This document shows, in pieces, positions 48,603 through 53,875 of a stretch of DNA of 64,000 nucleotides. The number at the start of each line of letters is the position of its first letter. The first letter of the stretch is position 1. A model generated the notes under the pieces. It was not told the DNA's origin. It did not search any database and worked only from the letters and a program-made list of their open reading frames with translations. Source of the stretch: Natronorubrum tibetense GA33 (GTDB taxonomy: Archaea; Halobacteriota; Halobacteria; Halobacteriales; Natrialbaceae); assembly GCF_000383975.1 (NCBI RefSeq), contig NZ_KB913017.1, positions 1,185,133 to 1,249,132 of the forward strand, given 5' to 3'. Both the position numbers and the translations under genes were made by a program.

Positions 48603-48884
48603 CTATCCGCCGCTGACCGGCGGGAACAGCGCCAGTTCGTCTCCGTCCTCGAGTTCCGTCTCGAGCCCTTCCTCCTCGACTAAGACGTTCGTCCCGTTGC
48701 GAAGCACGTTGATCTGGGATCGCAACTCGCCGTCGTCCAGGACGCGCGCCTCGAGATCGGGTCGGTCCGCGACGAGTTGCTCGAGGGCGTCTCCGACGGT
48801 ATCACCGGCAGCGGCGTCGACGGTGACGTGTTTGTCGCCTGCGTGCTCCGCGAGGTCGGCAAAGAGCTTCCACTCCGTAGGCAT
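48603..48884 (-). CDS. Ubiquitin-like small modifier/MoaD-like protein
   Basis: 93 residues from ATG 48882-48884 (MPTEWKLFADLAEHAGDKHV). Beta-grasp fold with C-terminal LFPPVSGG: the diglycine tail that is activated as an adenylate, as in SAMP1 and MoaD. It may tag proteins, supply sulfur for molybdopterin, or both. Convergent with the sulfite oxidase-like gene (31 bp apart). The longer frame to 49121 is rejected. Confidence 0.88.
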   Translation of the reverse strand: MPTEWKLFADLAEHAGDKHVTVDAAAGDTVGDALEQLVADRPDLEARVLDDGELRSQINVLRNGTNVLVEEEGLETELEDGDELALFPPVSGG

Positions 48885-48915
48885 ACGTGGCGGTATCGGT
48901 GCCGACGGCAAGTAG

Positions 48916-50232
48916 CTACCGCTCCCGCGTGCGGTTCGCCGGCGACGCCGACTCCGTCCCCGGTGGCCCTCCCGAGGATGCAGCCGAATCCGCGTTCGAT
49001 CCGCGTGTCTGTGCGATCTCGGACACCCGCCGCAGCGCCTCCGGACGACCGAGCACGTACGCCGTGTCGCCGGCCTCGAGCCGCGTTTCTCCGTCGGGTA
49101 ACGCGAGGCGGTCGCCGGCATCGGGTGCCGAGTCCCCGCACTCGACGGCGACGACGAGCACCGGAAGCGAGCCGACGGTCGCTCCCTCGAGTCCGTCGCC
49201 GGCCGCGACGGGGAGCGTCGTCACCGTCTCGTCGGCCGCTCGCAGGAGGGAGACGAGGTCGCGCTCCGCGCCCGGATTTCGGGGCAGGGTCACGAGTCGG
49301 TGGGCGACGTCGGACTCGAGCGCCTCCGCATCGTCGGCGTCGACGGCGACGGTCGCGATGTCGTCGGCCACGCCGCGGAGTTCGCCGCCGGTCACCCGCC
49401 GCAGCGAGTCGCCCTCGCGTCGCCAGATGCGGACCGCATCGCCCGGACTGGCGTCGGGTGCGGGGTCGCCCCGGATCGCAACGGCGACGCTGCCCGGTGC
49501 GAGCGTCGGCCCGATCCCGGCCGGACGACTGCCGAGTCCGAGGTGGGAAATCGTGCCGTCGTCGTCGAACTCGACGTCGACGTGGCCGATCCCGTAATCG
49601 CGTTCCAGACGCTCGATCAGCCGCTCGCGGAGCCGATCGGTGGTGAGCCGTCGCGGGAGGAGGAACGTCTGGCCCGCGAGTTCCGCCTTCGTCGACGGAT
49701 CGACGGGGTCGTAGCCGTCGACGTCCGCGATGGTCTCGGGGAGTTCGACGGTGACGACGCGGCCCGCCGAGCGGACGAGTTGGCCGACCTCCGTCATCGT
49801 TCGAGGGGTCGTCATGGAGAACACGTCCCGTGCGAGGTAGTCGCCCGCTCGGCGACCGCCGTCGGCGGCGATCGCACTCGCGGAGAAGGCGGCGACGGTG
49901 TAGACGGCCGTCGCGGGCTCGAGGAGTCCCGTGTCGCCGATGATCGCGTCCTGCAGGGCGGACTGCGTGTTCAGCCAGATCGCAACCATCGTGACACCGA
50001 GTAAGATCGCGATGCCCTCGGGAATCTCGTCCGCGCTGTACCAGCGGAAGACGAACGCCACCGTCGCCCCCGTTCCGGCCGCGAGCAGGCCGAAGCCGAG
50101 AATGCGAACGGCAGCGTCCACCAGCGTCTCCGAGGGGAGCGTCTGGGCGGCAATGGGGTCGAAGATGGACACTGCGACGACCGGCTCGAGGACGAACAGG
50201 GCGACGACGAAATCGACGAGCGCGGGGCTCAT
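48916..50232 (-). CDS. Membrane protein with C-terminal RCK_C (TrkA_C) domain, second of an operon
   Basis: 438 residues from ATG 50230-50232 (MSPALVDFVVALFVLEPVVA). The N-terminal 130 residues hold about four hydrophobic helices (FVVALFVLEPVVAVSIF, ILGFGLLAAGTGATVAF, EGIAILLGVTMVAIWLN, AVYTVAAFSASAIAADG). The soluble C-terminus has RCK_C-like strands (VVAVECGDSAPDAGDRLALP and LEAGDTAYVLGRPEALRRVS). No nucleotide-binding TrkA_N domain is present. It overlaps the upstream gene by 4 bases. Function unknown, perhaps a ligand-sensing membrane partner. The 884-residue frame around it is spurious upstream of 50232. Confidence 0.75.
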   Translation of the reverse strand: MSPALVDFVVALFVLEPVVAVSIFDPIAAQTLPSETLVDAAVRILGFGLLAAGTGATVAFVFRWYSADEIPEGIAILLGVTMVAIWLNTQSALQDAIIGDTGLLEPATAVYTVAAFSASAIAADGGRRAGDYLARDVFSMTTPRTMTEVGQLVRSAGRVVTVELPETIADVDGYDPVDPSTKAELAGQTFLLPRRLTTDRLRERLIERLERDYGIGHVDVEFDDDGTISHLGLGSRPAGIGPTLAPGSVAVAIRGDPAPDASPGDAVRIWRREGDSLRRVTGGELRGVADDIATVAVDADDAEALESDVAHRLVTLPRNPGAERDLVSLLRAADETVTTLPVAAGDGLEGATVGSLPVLVVAVECGDSAPDAGDRLALPDGETRLEAGDTAYVLGRPEALRRVSEIAQTRGSNADSAASSGGPPGTESASPANRTRER

Positions 50233-51491
50233 CCGGAAACCCCCTCGACGAACTCGTCGATCGTCTTCTCCGGACCCGCGACGAACATCTCGTCGCCGGT
50301 CTCGAGTCGTCGTTCGATGCCGGGGCCGAACACCCAGCCGTGGCGACGACCGCTCGTCTCGCTCCCGTGGCGGCGAATCGCGAGGATCGTCACGGTCCCC
50401 GAGGAGACGGCGTCGACGGTCGAATCGCCGGCACCGGCCGGCCCGACGGTGACGCGCCGGATTGCGTATCCAGCCTGCCTGATCAGGGCGAACGCCTCGA
50501 ACTCGCGGCTGGTTCCGCGCGAACGGACCCGAATCCGCGGTGACTCGGCCTCGAGCAGCGCTTTGGCGTCTCGCCGGGCGACGGAGACGGTGACGCGGCC
50601 GACGCCGCCGGCGCTCGCGGTCGTCGGTTTCGCCGCCGGATCGAGCGGCGGCGCGTCCTCGCCGCCGTCGGTGACCGCCGCTCCGGACGGTTCGTCTCCC
50701 GACTCGTCGGCCGCGGTCTCGGCGTGTTCCGCGTCGATTTCGGTTCGCGCGCTCAGGACCGTCCCGGAGACTGTTCGCTCGCCGGCACGGACGGTCACCT
50801 CGTCCCCGCGGGCCAGCCCCGTCGGAACTAGCGTCGCGAGCGAGACGGCGCGCTGTCCCTCCGAAACGCGCTTCGAGAGGCCGCCCGAGGGCGGTGCTGC
50901 GACGATCGTCGCGCGGGCCTGTTCGTCGATCGTGACGTCGACGTCGGCCAGATCGTGGTCCGTTCGCAGGCGTTCCTCGAGGCGAATCTCGAGCTCCGAG
51001 AGCGGGATGTCGGCGGGGAGCTTCCACGAGCCGTTTTGCAGCGTCTGTCGGAGGGCGGGCGACAGCGCCGGGTAGCCCTCCATGTTCCGGATCTCGCCGG
51101 CAGGCCGAACCGTGACCTGTCCCATCGTCCCGACGAGTTCGACGACATCGGCCGAGAGCGTTCGTTGGCGGATCGAGGTAAAGGAGAGTCGGCGAGGCAG
51201 TTCCGCACCGAGTTTGTCGCCCTGGTTGTGCGCGTAGAGCGCGAGCATGAGGACGACGAGGACCGCGACCAGCAGCCGCGGCGACTGCGCGATGTCGGGT
51301 TCGACGAGACCCAGCAGCCCGCCCTGCACGCTGGCGATCGAGAGCGCGAGGACGACGACACCGAATCCGGGCAACGTGACACCCGTAAAGTAGCGGACGA
51401 GAAAGCCGAGCGAGCCGGCGACGAATGCGGGAACGATTCCCGTTAGAAGACCGAGATAGAGCCCGAGCAGGACTTCGACCGGAAGCGTCAT
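50229..51491 (-). CDS. Membrane protein with RCK_C-like C-terminal domains, first of an operon
   Basis: 420 residues from ATG 51489-51491 (MTLPVEVLLGLYLGLLTGIV). Three hydrophobic helices in the first 100 residues, then a cytosolic region with a helical NGSWKLPADIPLSELEIRLE module, an acidic disordered linker (about 255-290), and a C-terminal region (TVTILAIRRHGSETSGRRHG, LETGDEMFVAGPEKTIDEF) with the GDEMFVAG pattern of RCK_C domains. It is co-translated with the next gene (ATGA overlap). The two proteins are likely one complex. Known RCK_C domains bind c-di-AMP in K+ systems; that is only a family clue. Confidence 0.72.
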   Translation of the reverse strand: MTLPVEVLLGLYLGLLTGIVPAFVAGSLGFLVRYFTGVTLPGFGVVVLALSIASVQGGLLGLVEPDIAQSPRLLVAVLVVLMLALYAHNQGDKLGAELPRRLSFTSIRQRTLSADVVELVGTMGQVTVRPAGEIRNMEGYPALSPALRQTLQNGSWKLPADIPLSELEIRLEERLRTDHDLADVDVTIDEQARATIVAAPPSGGLSKRVSEGQRAVSLATLVPTGLARGDEVTVRAGERTVSGTVLSARTEIDAEHAETAADESGDEPSGAAVTDGGEDAPPLDPAAKPTTASAGGVGRVTVSVARRDAKALLEAESPRIRVRSRGTSREFEAFALIRQAGYAIRRVTVGPAGAGDSTVDAVSSGTVTILAIRRHGSETSGRRHGWVFGPGIERRLETGDEMFVAGPEKTIDEFVEGVSG

Positions 51492-51653: not shown

Positions 51654-52625
51654 ATGAGCGCCGACTCCGATCCGACGTGCGTCGCCATCGCCTGTCAGGG
51701 TGGCGGCAGCCATACCGCGTTTACCGCCGGCGTCCTCGATCGCCTGCTGAGCGATCCCGCCCTCGAGCGCGAGATCGATATCGTCGGCTTCAGCGGGACC
51801 TCCGGCGGTGCGGTCTGTGCGCTGCTCGCGTGGTACGGCCGCGAACACCCCGACCACGAACCGGAGGACCTGCTCGCCGACTACTGGGCCGATCTGGCGG
51901 CCGAGGGGCCGATCGACCGCGCGGCCAACAGCGCGATCCGCTGGAGCAGCCAACTCGGGCGCATGGGCGTTCCGCTTCCCGATGTCAGCCCGTACCACTC
52001 TCCGGCCGCCTACTGGGGCAAGCGCGAGTTTCTGGACCTGCTCGAGCGCCACGTCGACTTCGAGGCGATTCCGCAGCTGCTGGACGGCACCGAGCCGGCC
52101 CTGTTGATCAGTGCGATCGACGTGCTGACGGGCGAGTTCGAGCTGTTCCGCGAGAACGATCTCTCGCCCGAGGCGATTCTGGCATCGGCCGCGATTCCGT
52201 ACGCGTTCAAGGCCGTCGAAGTGGACGGCAGCTACTACTGGGACGGCCTGTTCTCGAAGAACCCGCCGGTCAAGGACTTCGTGACGAATCGCGAAACGCC
52301 GGATCCCGACGAGATCTGGGTCGTCAAGATCAATCCCGAAGCGCGCGACCGCGTCCCGAAGTCGGCCGACGGCATCGCTGACCGACGGAACGAACTGTCC
52401 GGGAACAAGTCGCTCAACGCCGAGATCAACTTCGTCGAGCACGTCAACGACTGGATCGAGGCGGGCTACCTTCCCGAGAAGTTTACCCACACCGAGATCG
52501 AACGGATCCGGTTCGGCCGGTCGGATCTCGGCTGGCGAACGAAACTCGAGCGCAGCCCCGAGTTCGTCGAATCGCTCTACGCCGACGGCGAGGACGCGGC
52601 TGAAGCGTTCCTCGAGCGGCGATGA
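51654..52625 (+). CDS. Patatin-like phospholipase
   Basis: 323 residues. Oxyanion glycines in ACQGGGSHTAFTAGVLDRLL, nucleophile Ser50 in GFSGTSGGAVC and the catalytic Asp197 in YYWDGLFSKNPP. The dyad is complete. It acts as a cytosolic acyl hydrolase; note archaeal lipids are ether-linked, so the substrate is not the usual phospholipid. Divergent from the RCK_C operon, 162 bp between starts. Confidence 0.9.
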   Translation: MSADSDPTCVAIACQGGGSHTAFTAGVLDRLLSDPALEREIDIVGFSGTSGGAVCALLAWYGREHPDHEPEDLLADYWADLAAEGPIDRAANSAIRWSSQLGRMGVPLPDVSPYHSPAAYWGKREFLDLLERHVDFEAIPQLLDGTEPALLISAIDVLTGEFELFRENDLSPEAILASAAIPYAFKAVEVDGSYYWDGLFSKNPPVKDFVTNRETPDPDEIWVVKINPEARDRVPKSADGIADRRNELSGNKSLNAEINFVEHVNDWIEAGYLPEKFTHTEIERIRFGRSDLGWRTKLERSPEFVESLYADGEDAAEAFLERR

Positions 52626-52675
52626 AACCGTCCGAAGACGGAGCCGTTAACTAACGCCGCCGCGCACCGGTGGGT

Positions 52676-53875
52676 ATGGCTGAGGTCCGAGCGTGGCAAG
52701 ATCGGCTGCCCGACAACTGGCGACGGATCCTCTCGACCCGGGCAGCCGTCGCGCTCGCGCTGACCGTCGCGCTGCTCTCGGTCGCGACGGCGATCGTCAA
52801 CATTGGCACCGATGTCGTCTACGGCCCGCTCGCGCCGTATCTCCCCGACGCTGTCCAAGACACGGCCGGCTTCACCGGCGCGCTGACGGGGTTTATGATG
52901 GTCGGCAGCGCGCTCGCGCTGCGTCGCGGACTCCGCGTCGGCTGGTGGGCGACGTTCCTACTCCTCCCGCTAACCGCTGCACAGGGGCTCCTCCAGGCGA
53001 GTGTCTACTCACTGCCGCTAATCGTCCTCTCGCTCGTCGCGATGCCGGTGCTCCTCGTCAGTCGGAAGCGGTTCACGCAGCCGCTCTCGCTCGGAACGAC
53101 CCAGATCGCGGCCGGCTCGGCGCTGCTCGGCGTGCAGCTGTACGGAACCATCGGCGGCTACGCCCTTCGAGATCACTTCGAGGGGATCGACAGCATCCTC
53201 GACGCCTTCTACTTCACGCTGATCACCTCGAGTACGGTCGGTTACGGCGATATCACGCCGGATCAGGACTCGACGGAGGGGCTGCTGTTCACGATGTCCG
53301 TCCTCGTCCTCGGCGTAGCCAGTTTCGGTATCGCCGTCGGGGCGCTGGTTGGACCGGCAATTCAGGCGCGAATCACGAAAACACTCGGAAAGATGACCGA
53401 CTCACAGCTCGAACTCCTCGAGGACCACCTTCTGGTCCTCGGCTACGGCGAACTGACGGAACCGATCGTCGACGAACTCGCGGCCAACGGGCGCGAGTTC
53501 GTCGTCGTGGCGAACAACCGGGACGTGGCACCCGCGCTCTCCGATCGTGGGATTCCGGTGATCACCGCCGACCCGAGCGACAAAGAGCCGCTTCAACGAG
53601 CGAAGATCGAGCGCGCGAACGCGATTCTGGTCGCCACGAACCACGACGCCGAGGACGCGCTCTCGATTCTCACCGCACGGAGCCTCGCACCCGAGACCCG
53701 CATCGTCGCCGCCGCGACCGACCGCGAGAACACCGAAAAGCTCGAGCGCGCCGGTGCGGATACGGTGATCAGTCCCTCGGTGCTGGGGGGCCACCTGCTG
53801 GTTCGGTCGGCGCTGGGTAGCGACGACAGCGAACTGATCGATCGGATCATCGGCGACAACGATAGTAACAACTGA
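52676..53875 (+). CDS. Potassium channel with cytosolic RCK (TrkA_N) domain
   Basis: 399 residues from ATG 52676 (a GTG at 52670 is also open). The first third holds several hydrophobic helices. The pore signature SSTVGYGDITP (about 188-198) is the K+ filter. After the last helix comes an RCK_N domain: LLVLGYGELTEPIVDELAAN (Rossmann), ADPSDKEPLQRAKIERANAI, ATNHDAEDALSILTARSLAP. A TrkA_C domain is not evident, in contrast to the RCK_C operon next to it. Its last codons (GDNDSNN, stop) are encoded by the start of a 76-bp palindromic repeat. Confidence 0.9.
   Translation: MAEVRAWQDRLPDNWRRILSTRAAVALALTVALLSVATAIVNIGTDVVYGPLAPYLPDAVQDTAGFTGALTGFMMVGSALALRRGLRVGWWATFLLLPLTAAQGLLQASVYSLPLIVLSLVAMPVLLVSRKRFTQPLSLGTTQIAAGSALLGVQLYGTIGGYALRDHFEGIDSILDAFYFTLITSSTVGYGDITPDQDSTEGLLFTMSVLVLGVASFGIAVGALVGPAIQARITKTLGKMTDSQLELLEDHLLVLGYGELTEPIVDELAANGREFVVVANNRDVAPALSDRGIPVITADPSDKEPLQRAKIERANAILVATNHDAEDALSILTARSLAPETRIVAAATDRENTEKLERAGADTVISPSVLGGHLLVRSALGSDDSELIDRIIGDNDSNN

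Follow-up and report, generated by a model that had tools for sequence, protein, structure and literature searches.

A probable K+-regulatory pair of RCK_C-bearing membrane proteins encoded close to a Kch-type channel in haloarchaea

The window analysed here, a stretch of 64,000 nucleotides from Natronorubrum tibetense GA33 (contig NZ_KB913017.1, positions 1,185,133 to 1,249,132 of the forward strand), contains two overlapping genes which probably encode an uncharacterised haloarchaeal K+-regulatory pair. Gene A (50229..51491, minus strand) codes for a protein of 420 amino acids and gene B (48916..50232, minus strand) for a homologue of 438 amino acids with the same architecture: three predicted transmembrane (TM) helices are followed by an alpha/beta segment and a beta-barrel, and the C-terminal domain is an RCK_C. 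A Kch-type K+ channel of 401 amino acids is encoded on the opposite strand (52670..53875, plus strand), about 1.18 kb from A when measured from start to start, with a patatin gene in between. Haloarchaea hold molar internal K+ and, to our knowledge, the gating of K+ channels has been little studied in them.

The stop codon of A and the start codon of B share four bases (ATGA, 50229..50232, minus strand), an overlap from which translational coupling of the two genes may be inferred. B was found immediately after A at every locus compared, 60 of them from other genomes and 31 named. A strict test, requiring B to be open for more than 330 codons together with the 4-base overlap, was passed by 50 of the 60 loci and by 11 of the 31 named loci, and ATGA is therefore not universal at the A-B join in these two sets; the failure of locus L030 is due to its DNA stopping within B. 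In 19 of the 31 named loci A and B are separated by an extra open reading frame (ORF) of 14-50 codons, such as 9257-9310 in L017. The ORF begins in the ATGA that ends A, and mostly B begins at a GTGA or ATGA overlapping its stop. In the window, the stretch matching this ORF is in frame with B.

A and B proved to be homologous over 350 alignment columns (hhalign E 1.2e-31), with conserved residues along the full length of both proteins. Judged by this alignment, they are a duplicated gene pair rather than unrelated neighbours.

The predicted membrane helices of A correspond to residues 3-97 (51201..51485, minus strand, as are all features of A and B given here), the beta-barrel to residues 204-326 (50514..50882), interrupted by a disordered stretch at about 263-295, and the RCK_C domain to residues 326-420 (50232..50516). 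For B, the predicted helices lie at residues 34-141 (49810..50133), the beta-barrel at residues 239-320 (49273..49518) and the RCK_C domain at residues 319-412 (48997..49278). The most basic loops follow the third TM helix, with five lysine and arginine residues in A and six in B, which is compatible with a cytosolic location of the C-terminal part of each predicted protein.

The RCK_C domain of B was recognised by the Pfam model TrkA_C (PF02080, RCK_C) with 27.3 bits at residues 341-406, above the cut-off of 27. A reached 19.8 bits at residues 366-414, under that cut-off, and a relative of A from another family (L134) reached 47.3 bits. Profile comparisons matched A to the RCK_C domains of PH0236, CpaA, KtrC, KhtT and MthK (E 4e-8 to 3e-4), and further to those of BusR and KtrA; B was matched to the RCK_C domain of TM1088B and, more weakly, to that of MthK. 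No match to the nucleotide-binding domain TrkA_N (PF02254) was obtained for A or B up to E 1, and the predicted secondary structure of both proteins showed no Rossmann repeat ahead of the barrel.

AlphaFold models of the single chains had a mean predicted local distance difference test score (pLDDT) of 82.8 for A and 83.4 for B, and in both of them three membrane helices precede a mixed alpha/beta segment, the beta-barrel and RCK_C. For each RCK_C domain the closest structure was KhtT (7ahm), with Z 8.4 over 82 residues and a root-mean-square deviation (rmsd) of 2.7 for A, and Z 9.8 over 70 residues and rmsd 1.7 for B; further matches were CpaA, MthK and PH0236. The barrels resembled RcpC (9gzr) with Z 8.2 in either case, over 77 residues with rmsd 2.0 for A and over 80 residues with rmsd 2.2 for B; there the sequence profile of B also matched the SMUBP-2 1B barrel (E 6e-5). 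Since Z values near 8 are middling by the guidance of the comparison tool, the RCK_C assignment leans on sequence and structure together. A Foldseek search with whole A gave no match at E 0.001, the parts other than RCK_C being barely covered by that search. Thus coordinates, profiles and models agree with the preliminary description, made from the DNA sequence, of overlapping genes for membrane proteins that end in RCK_C and lack a nucleotide-binding domain.

The same description had placed an RCK_N-only K+ channel nearby, and this was borne out. The channel contains a pore with a TVGYGD filter (Ion_trans_2) and a TrkA_N domain at residues 255-369, and ends 32 residues past TrkA_N; Pfam gave no TrkA_C match in it. 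It matched the E. coli-type Kch model NF007828 with 189 bits over residues 73-383 and the RCK structure of E. coli Kch (1id1) with E 7e-14. The NF007828 model, matched at its positions 77-380, is only 403 positions long, and RCK_N without RCK_C is therefore normal for E. coli-type Kch.

Coordinates of both A and Kch were available for 161 genomes (A was known in 228 and Kch in 163; 67 genomes with A but no Kch position were excluded). In 127 of the 161 genomes Kch and A were no more than 10 kb apart, and in 126 Kch was divergent from A, with gaps of mostly 68-350 bp. The closeness was seen in eight of the ten families examined (f1, 62/81; f2, 10/11; f3, 17/21; f4, 23/27; f6, 4/4; f7, 6/8; f8, 2/2; f9, 3/4; f10, 0/1; f11, 0/2). 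Among the named loci Kch was present in 29 of 31; L043 (Salinarchaeum) has no Kch in the stretch, and the state of L041 is undecidable because its contig stops 1.8 kb from A. A pair widespread without a nearby channel, a pattern which the preliminary description regarded as fatal to its proposal, was not seen, yet a minority of the pairs, described below, does have no channel nearby.

The distribution of the genes was surveyed in 391 genomes of the class, Kch being counted at E up to 1e-40. With weak matches counted (ten for A and ten for B), A was found in 334 genomes, B in 330 and Kch in 378, and the two partners occurred in 79 (A) and 80 (B) of the 86 genera. At E <1e-60, A was present in 324 of the 378 Kch-bearing genomes, whereas all 13 that lack Kch had no such match (Fisher p 3.9e-11, relatedness ignored; 3 of the 13 Kch-less genomes are <90% complete). 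A search of the phylum (294 genomes, including members of the class) revealed no full-length A outside the class, where only RCK_C-sized matches with E near 1e-10 were obtained; remote relatives may exist elsewhere. The pair, present in about four fifths of the genomes surveyed from the class and mostly tied to one channel, is a candidate for the control of K+ channel gating that can be deleted.

Gene order around the pair was compared in 60 loci across families, selected mostly from genomes with known A and Kch positions. B was kept in 60, Kch in 54, the ThiS-family gene in 48, gene 58058 in 44, memb55806 in 37, asparaginase and DeoC in 27 each and GNAT in 24. In six loci (L089, L090, L103, L104, L106 and L107) Kch, A and B are intact and no other tested flank of the window, gene 58058 included, was found. 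Regional synteny was considered as the whole explanation of the arrangement and was rejected: Kch is the top neighbour after B, and the trio outlasts the other flanks.

Rearranged versions of the locus were also observed. In genus g27 (L089, L218) the genes Kch, A and B follow one another in that order on one strand. In genus g40 (L132, L200) the pair has no Kch beside it and adjoins genes for an Na_H_Exchanger protein and a small TrkA_C protein, which are KhtU- and KhtT-like; L132 also encodes a protein in which TrkA_N and TrkA_C each occur twice. In L135 (family f9) KhtT- and KhtU-like genes are inserted between A and Kch. Antiporter or KhtT-like genes beside the pair were found in 3 of 86 loci scanned, and such neighbours provide a second link of the pair to K+ transport. 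A tree of 74 A proteins, in which L041 was counted as Kch-adjacent although its contig leaves this undecidable, showed seven changes of the Kch-adjacent label, with the paralogues set apart.

It was also observed in L135 (11705-14148, plus strand) that the KhtU-like antiporter gene and the start of Kch have four bases in common, which suggests that a K+/H+ antiporter and a K+ channel may be produced together.

Two further genes of the window lie at this locus. The patatin-like phospholipase gene (51654..52625, plus strand), between A and Kch, occurs in some Natrialbaceae only and lies outside the conserved unit; it is situated 44 bp 5' of Kch on the same strand, and remains by Kch even without A-B (L142, L150). 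The ThiS-family small protein (48603..48887, minus strand), with the C-terminal residues FPPVSGG, presumably is SAMP1-like; its gene is exceeded in frequency among the neighbours only by B and Kch, and adjoins B in most loci. Separately, five loci (L091, L093, L096, L097 and L101) encode a B of about 580-630 amino acids, extended C-terminally by roughly 200 residues. No Pfam domain was found in this extension in the three proteins scanned (L091, L093 and L097).

The RCK_C matches of A and B, by profile and by structure, are regulators of K+ transport. We favour the view that A and B assemble into a heteromeric RCK_C unit, anchored in the membrane, which regulates K+ flux, mainly via the neighbouring Kch, and we consider its chances to be about even. 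The RCK_C domains of A and B would pair beneath the membrane, as RCK_C does in other proteins. A cytosolic ligand or ion at the RCK_C dimer, or a changed K+ or osmotic state, might then shift the anchored domains, and the shifted domains would bias the gating ring built from the RCK_N of Kch. The regulator would be accessory, with Kch able to persist alone. In its strongest form, in which a K+ channel gating ring is split in trans across the haloarchaea, with Kch giving the RCK_N and a membrane-anchored A-B heterodimer the ligand-reading RCK_C, the proposal seems doubtful to us.

A number of observations weigh against a regulatory role of the pair at Kch. As E. coli-type Kch is ordinarily without RCK_C, the absence of this domain from the channel is by itself no hint of a partner. 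The pair is not near Kch in 34 of the 161 genomes, including those of the Salinarchaeum group and the paralogous pair of this genome. This second A-B pair (43% and 40% identity; 8381-10931 in L047, about 1850380-1852930 of C1 in this genome) has no channel within the 20 kb examined around it; among its neighbours are what we take to be a PAP2-like protein and two ATPases, one HerA-like and one of secretion type. The wider region is partly syntenic by itself. The predicted template modelling scores (pTM) of the models were 0.40 for A and 0.43 for B, so that the packing between domains is unsure. The RCK_C domain of A, textbook in the alignment of other families, has a degenerate helix in the family of the window; the low TrkA_C score of A is, by this alignment, a local peculiarity of that family.

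The losses of the pair bear on the same question. Fifteen Kch loci of Natrialbaceae (f1) have no A-B alongside, and in 11 of them the ThiS and DeoC flanks of the window are both still there beside Kch, with A-B gone; 4 of the 15 genomes retain a paralogous pair elsewhere. Of 81 columns conserved in Kch across 85 sequences with the pair, none deviates in at least 30% of the 15 Kch-only sequences. These unchanged columns speak against an obligate tight interface. Since the pair is lost while the conserved columns of Kch stay unchanged, the pair is accessory and an obligate complex unlikely. For the split ion-sensing system of the preliminary description, the link to K+ transport is retained through gene context (the 127 of 161 genomes), and a split proper is weakened by the persistence of Kch alone at 15 loci with its conserved residues unchanged.

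Pairs apart from Kch, some of them by KhtTU-like genes, and the second, channel-less pair in the same genome would be accommodated if A-B were a K+ or osmotic sensor, e.g. for cyclic di-adenosine monophosphate (c-di-AMP), serving several transporters, or a six-helix transport unit of its own. RCK_C domains dimerise, and a passage in PMC8517857 states that several K+ regulators bind c-di-AMP there. The best structural matches of the RCK_C domains of A and B include the c-di-AMP complexes of KhtT, CpaA and BusR, a resemblance of fold only, and a gene for a DAC-domain protein is present in the genome (E 1.6e-19). Most pairs, however, adjoin one channel family, the helix in the RCK_C domain of A has degenerated within the family of the window, and three short helices per chain found no transporter match in the searches made. 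We regard this alternative, too, with some doubt.

It is unlikely, in our estimation, that Kch and the pair adjoin merely through old haloarchaeal gene order and that the job of the pair is a different one. The retention of ThiS, gene 58058 and memb55806 in 48, 44 and 37 of the 60 loci would fit such an explanation, as would the choice of loci partly for known A and Kch positions and the survival of Kch without the pair. Against this, Kch was kept in 54 of the 60 loci, above every neighbour except B, the trio stays together where no other tested flank was found, the array has been rebuilt on one strand in genus g27, and a strong A match was absent from all 13 Kch-less genomes. A-B might also be what is left of a former RCK transporter, or a decoy of one, co-translated but of little function. 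The loss of the pair from many Natrialbaceae and the 11 of 15 Kch-only loci with ThiS and DeoC flanks would fit this reading, which is highly improbable given the presence of the pair in most genomes (334 of 391 for A, 330 for B) and genera (79 and 80 of 86) of the class and the residues conserved along its full length.

The regulatory pair favoured here can be compared with several known proteins. The closest is HVO_2617 of Haloferax volcanii, assigned to composite gene family 1329, for which a passage in PMC5992828 (2018) describes a three-pass protein of 403 amino acids with a C-terminal TrkA domain, belonging to a haloarchaeal family with a proposed role in K+ uptake. Its three-pass N-terminus, TrkA domain and occurrence are those of A. 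SAMP1 is given as HVO_2619 in the part of PMC4500146 consulted, and HVO_2617 is probably gene A because it lies two locus numbers from SAMP1, as A does from the ThiS gene; this identity follows from gene numbers, not sequence. The passage on HVO_2617 names neither a homologous overlapping partner such as B, nor a Kch neighbour, nor a beta-barrel (PMC5992828), and no description of the A-B pairing or of its link with Kch was found in the open-licence literature searched. Hence the view that no such system had been described holds for the pair and its channel in that literature and gives way for the three-pass TrkA-domain protein, already in print: the architecture of one half was published, and the association of pair and channel was not found there.

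E. coli-type Kch (NF007828, 1id1) and the channel of the window both consist of pore and RCK_N only, unlike in that the latter falls under the NF007828 equivalog cut-off of 425 bits. We know of no A-B-like partner of E. coli Kch.

TM1088A and TM1088B of Thermotoga maritima constitute a two-subunit TrkA gating ring which serves K+ transport, as presented in the part of PMC4380455 consulted. There TM1088A contains PF02254 only and TM1088B contains PF02254 and PF02080, and both are cytosolic, whereas A and B are membrane proteins without RCK_N; they are thus not of the TM1088 type, in which both subunits are soluble and carry RCK_N.

KhtT, the regulator of the K+/H+ antiporter KhtTU, resembles A and B in having RCK_C without RCK_N, and acts on a separate membrane protein, as is proposed for the pair. 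KhtT is, however, one small protein without membrane helices (model of about 160 residues), soluble and encoded with a CPA2 antiporter, whereas A and B are paired membrane proteins that contain a barrel and fall outside this type. Should RCK_C indeed act in trans from a membrane anchor, the known gating rings would understate how modular RCK regulation is.
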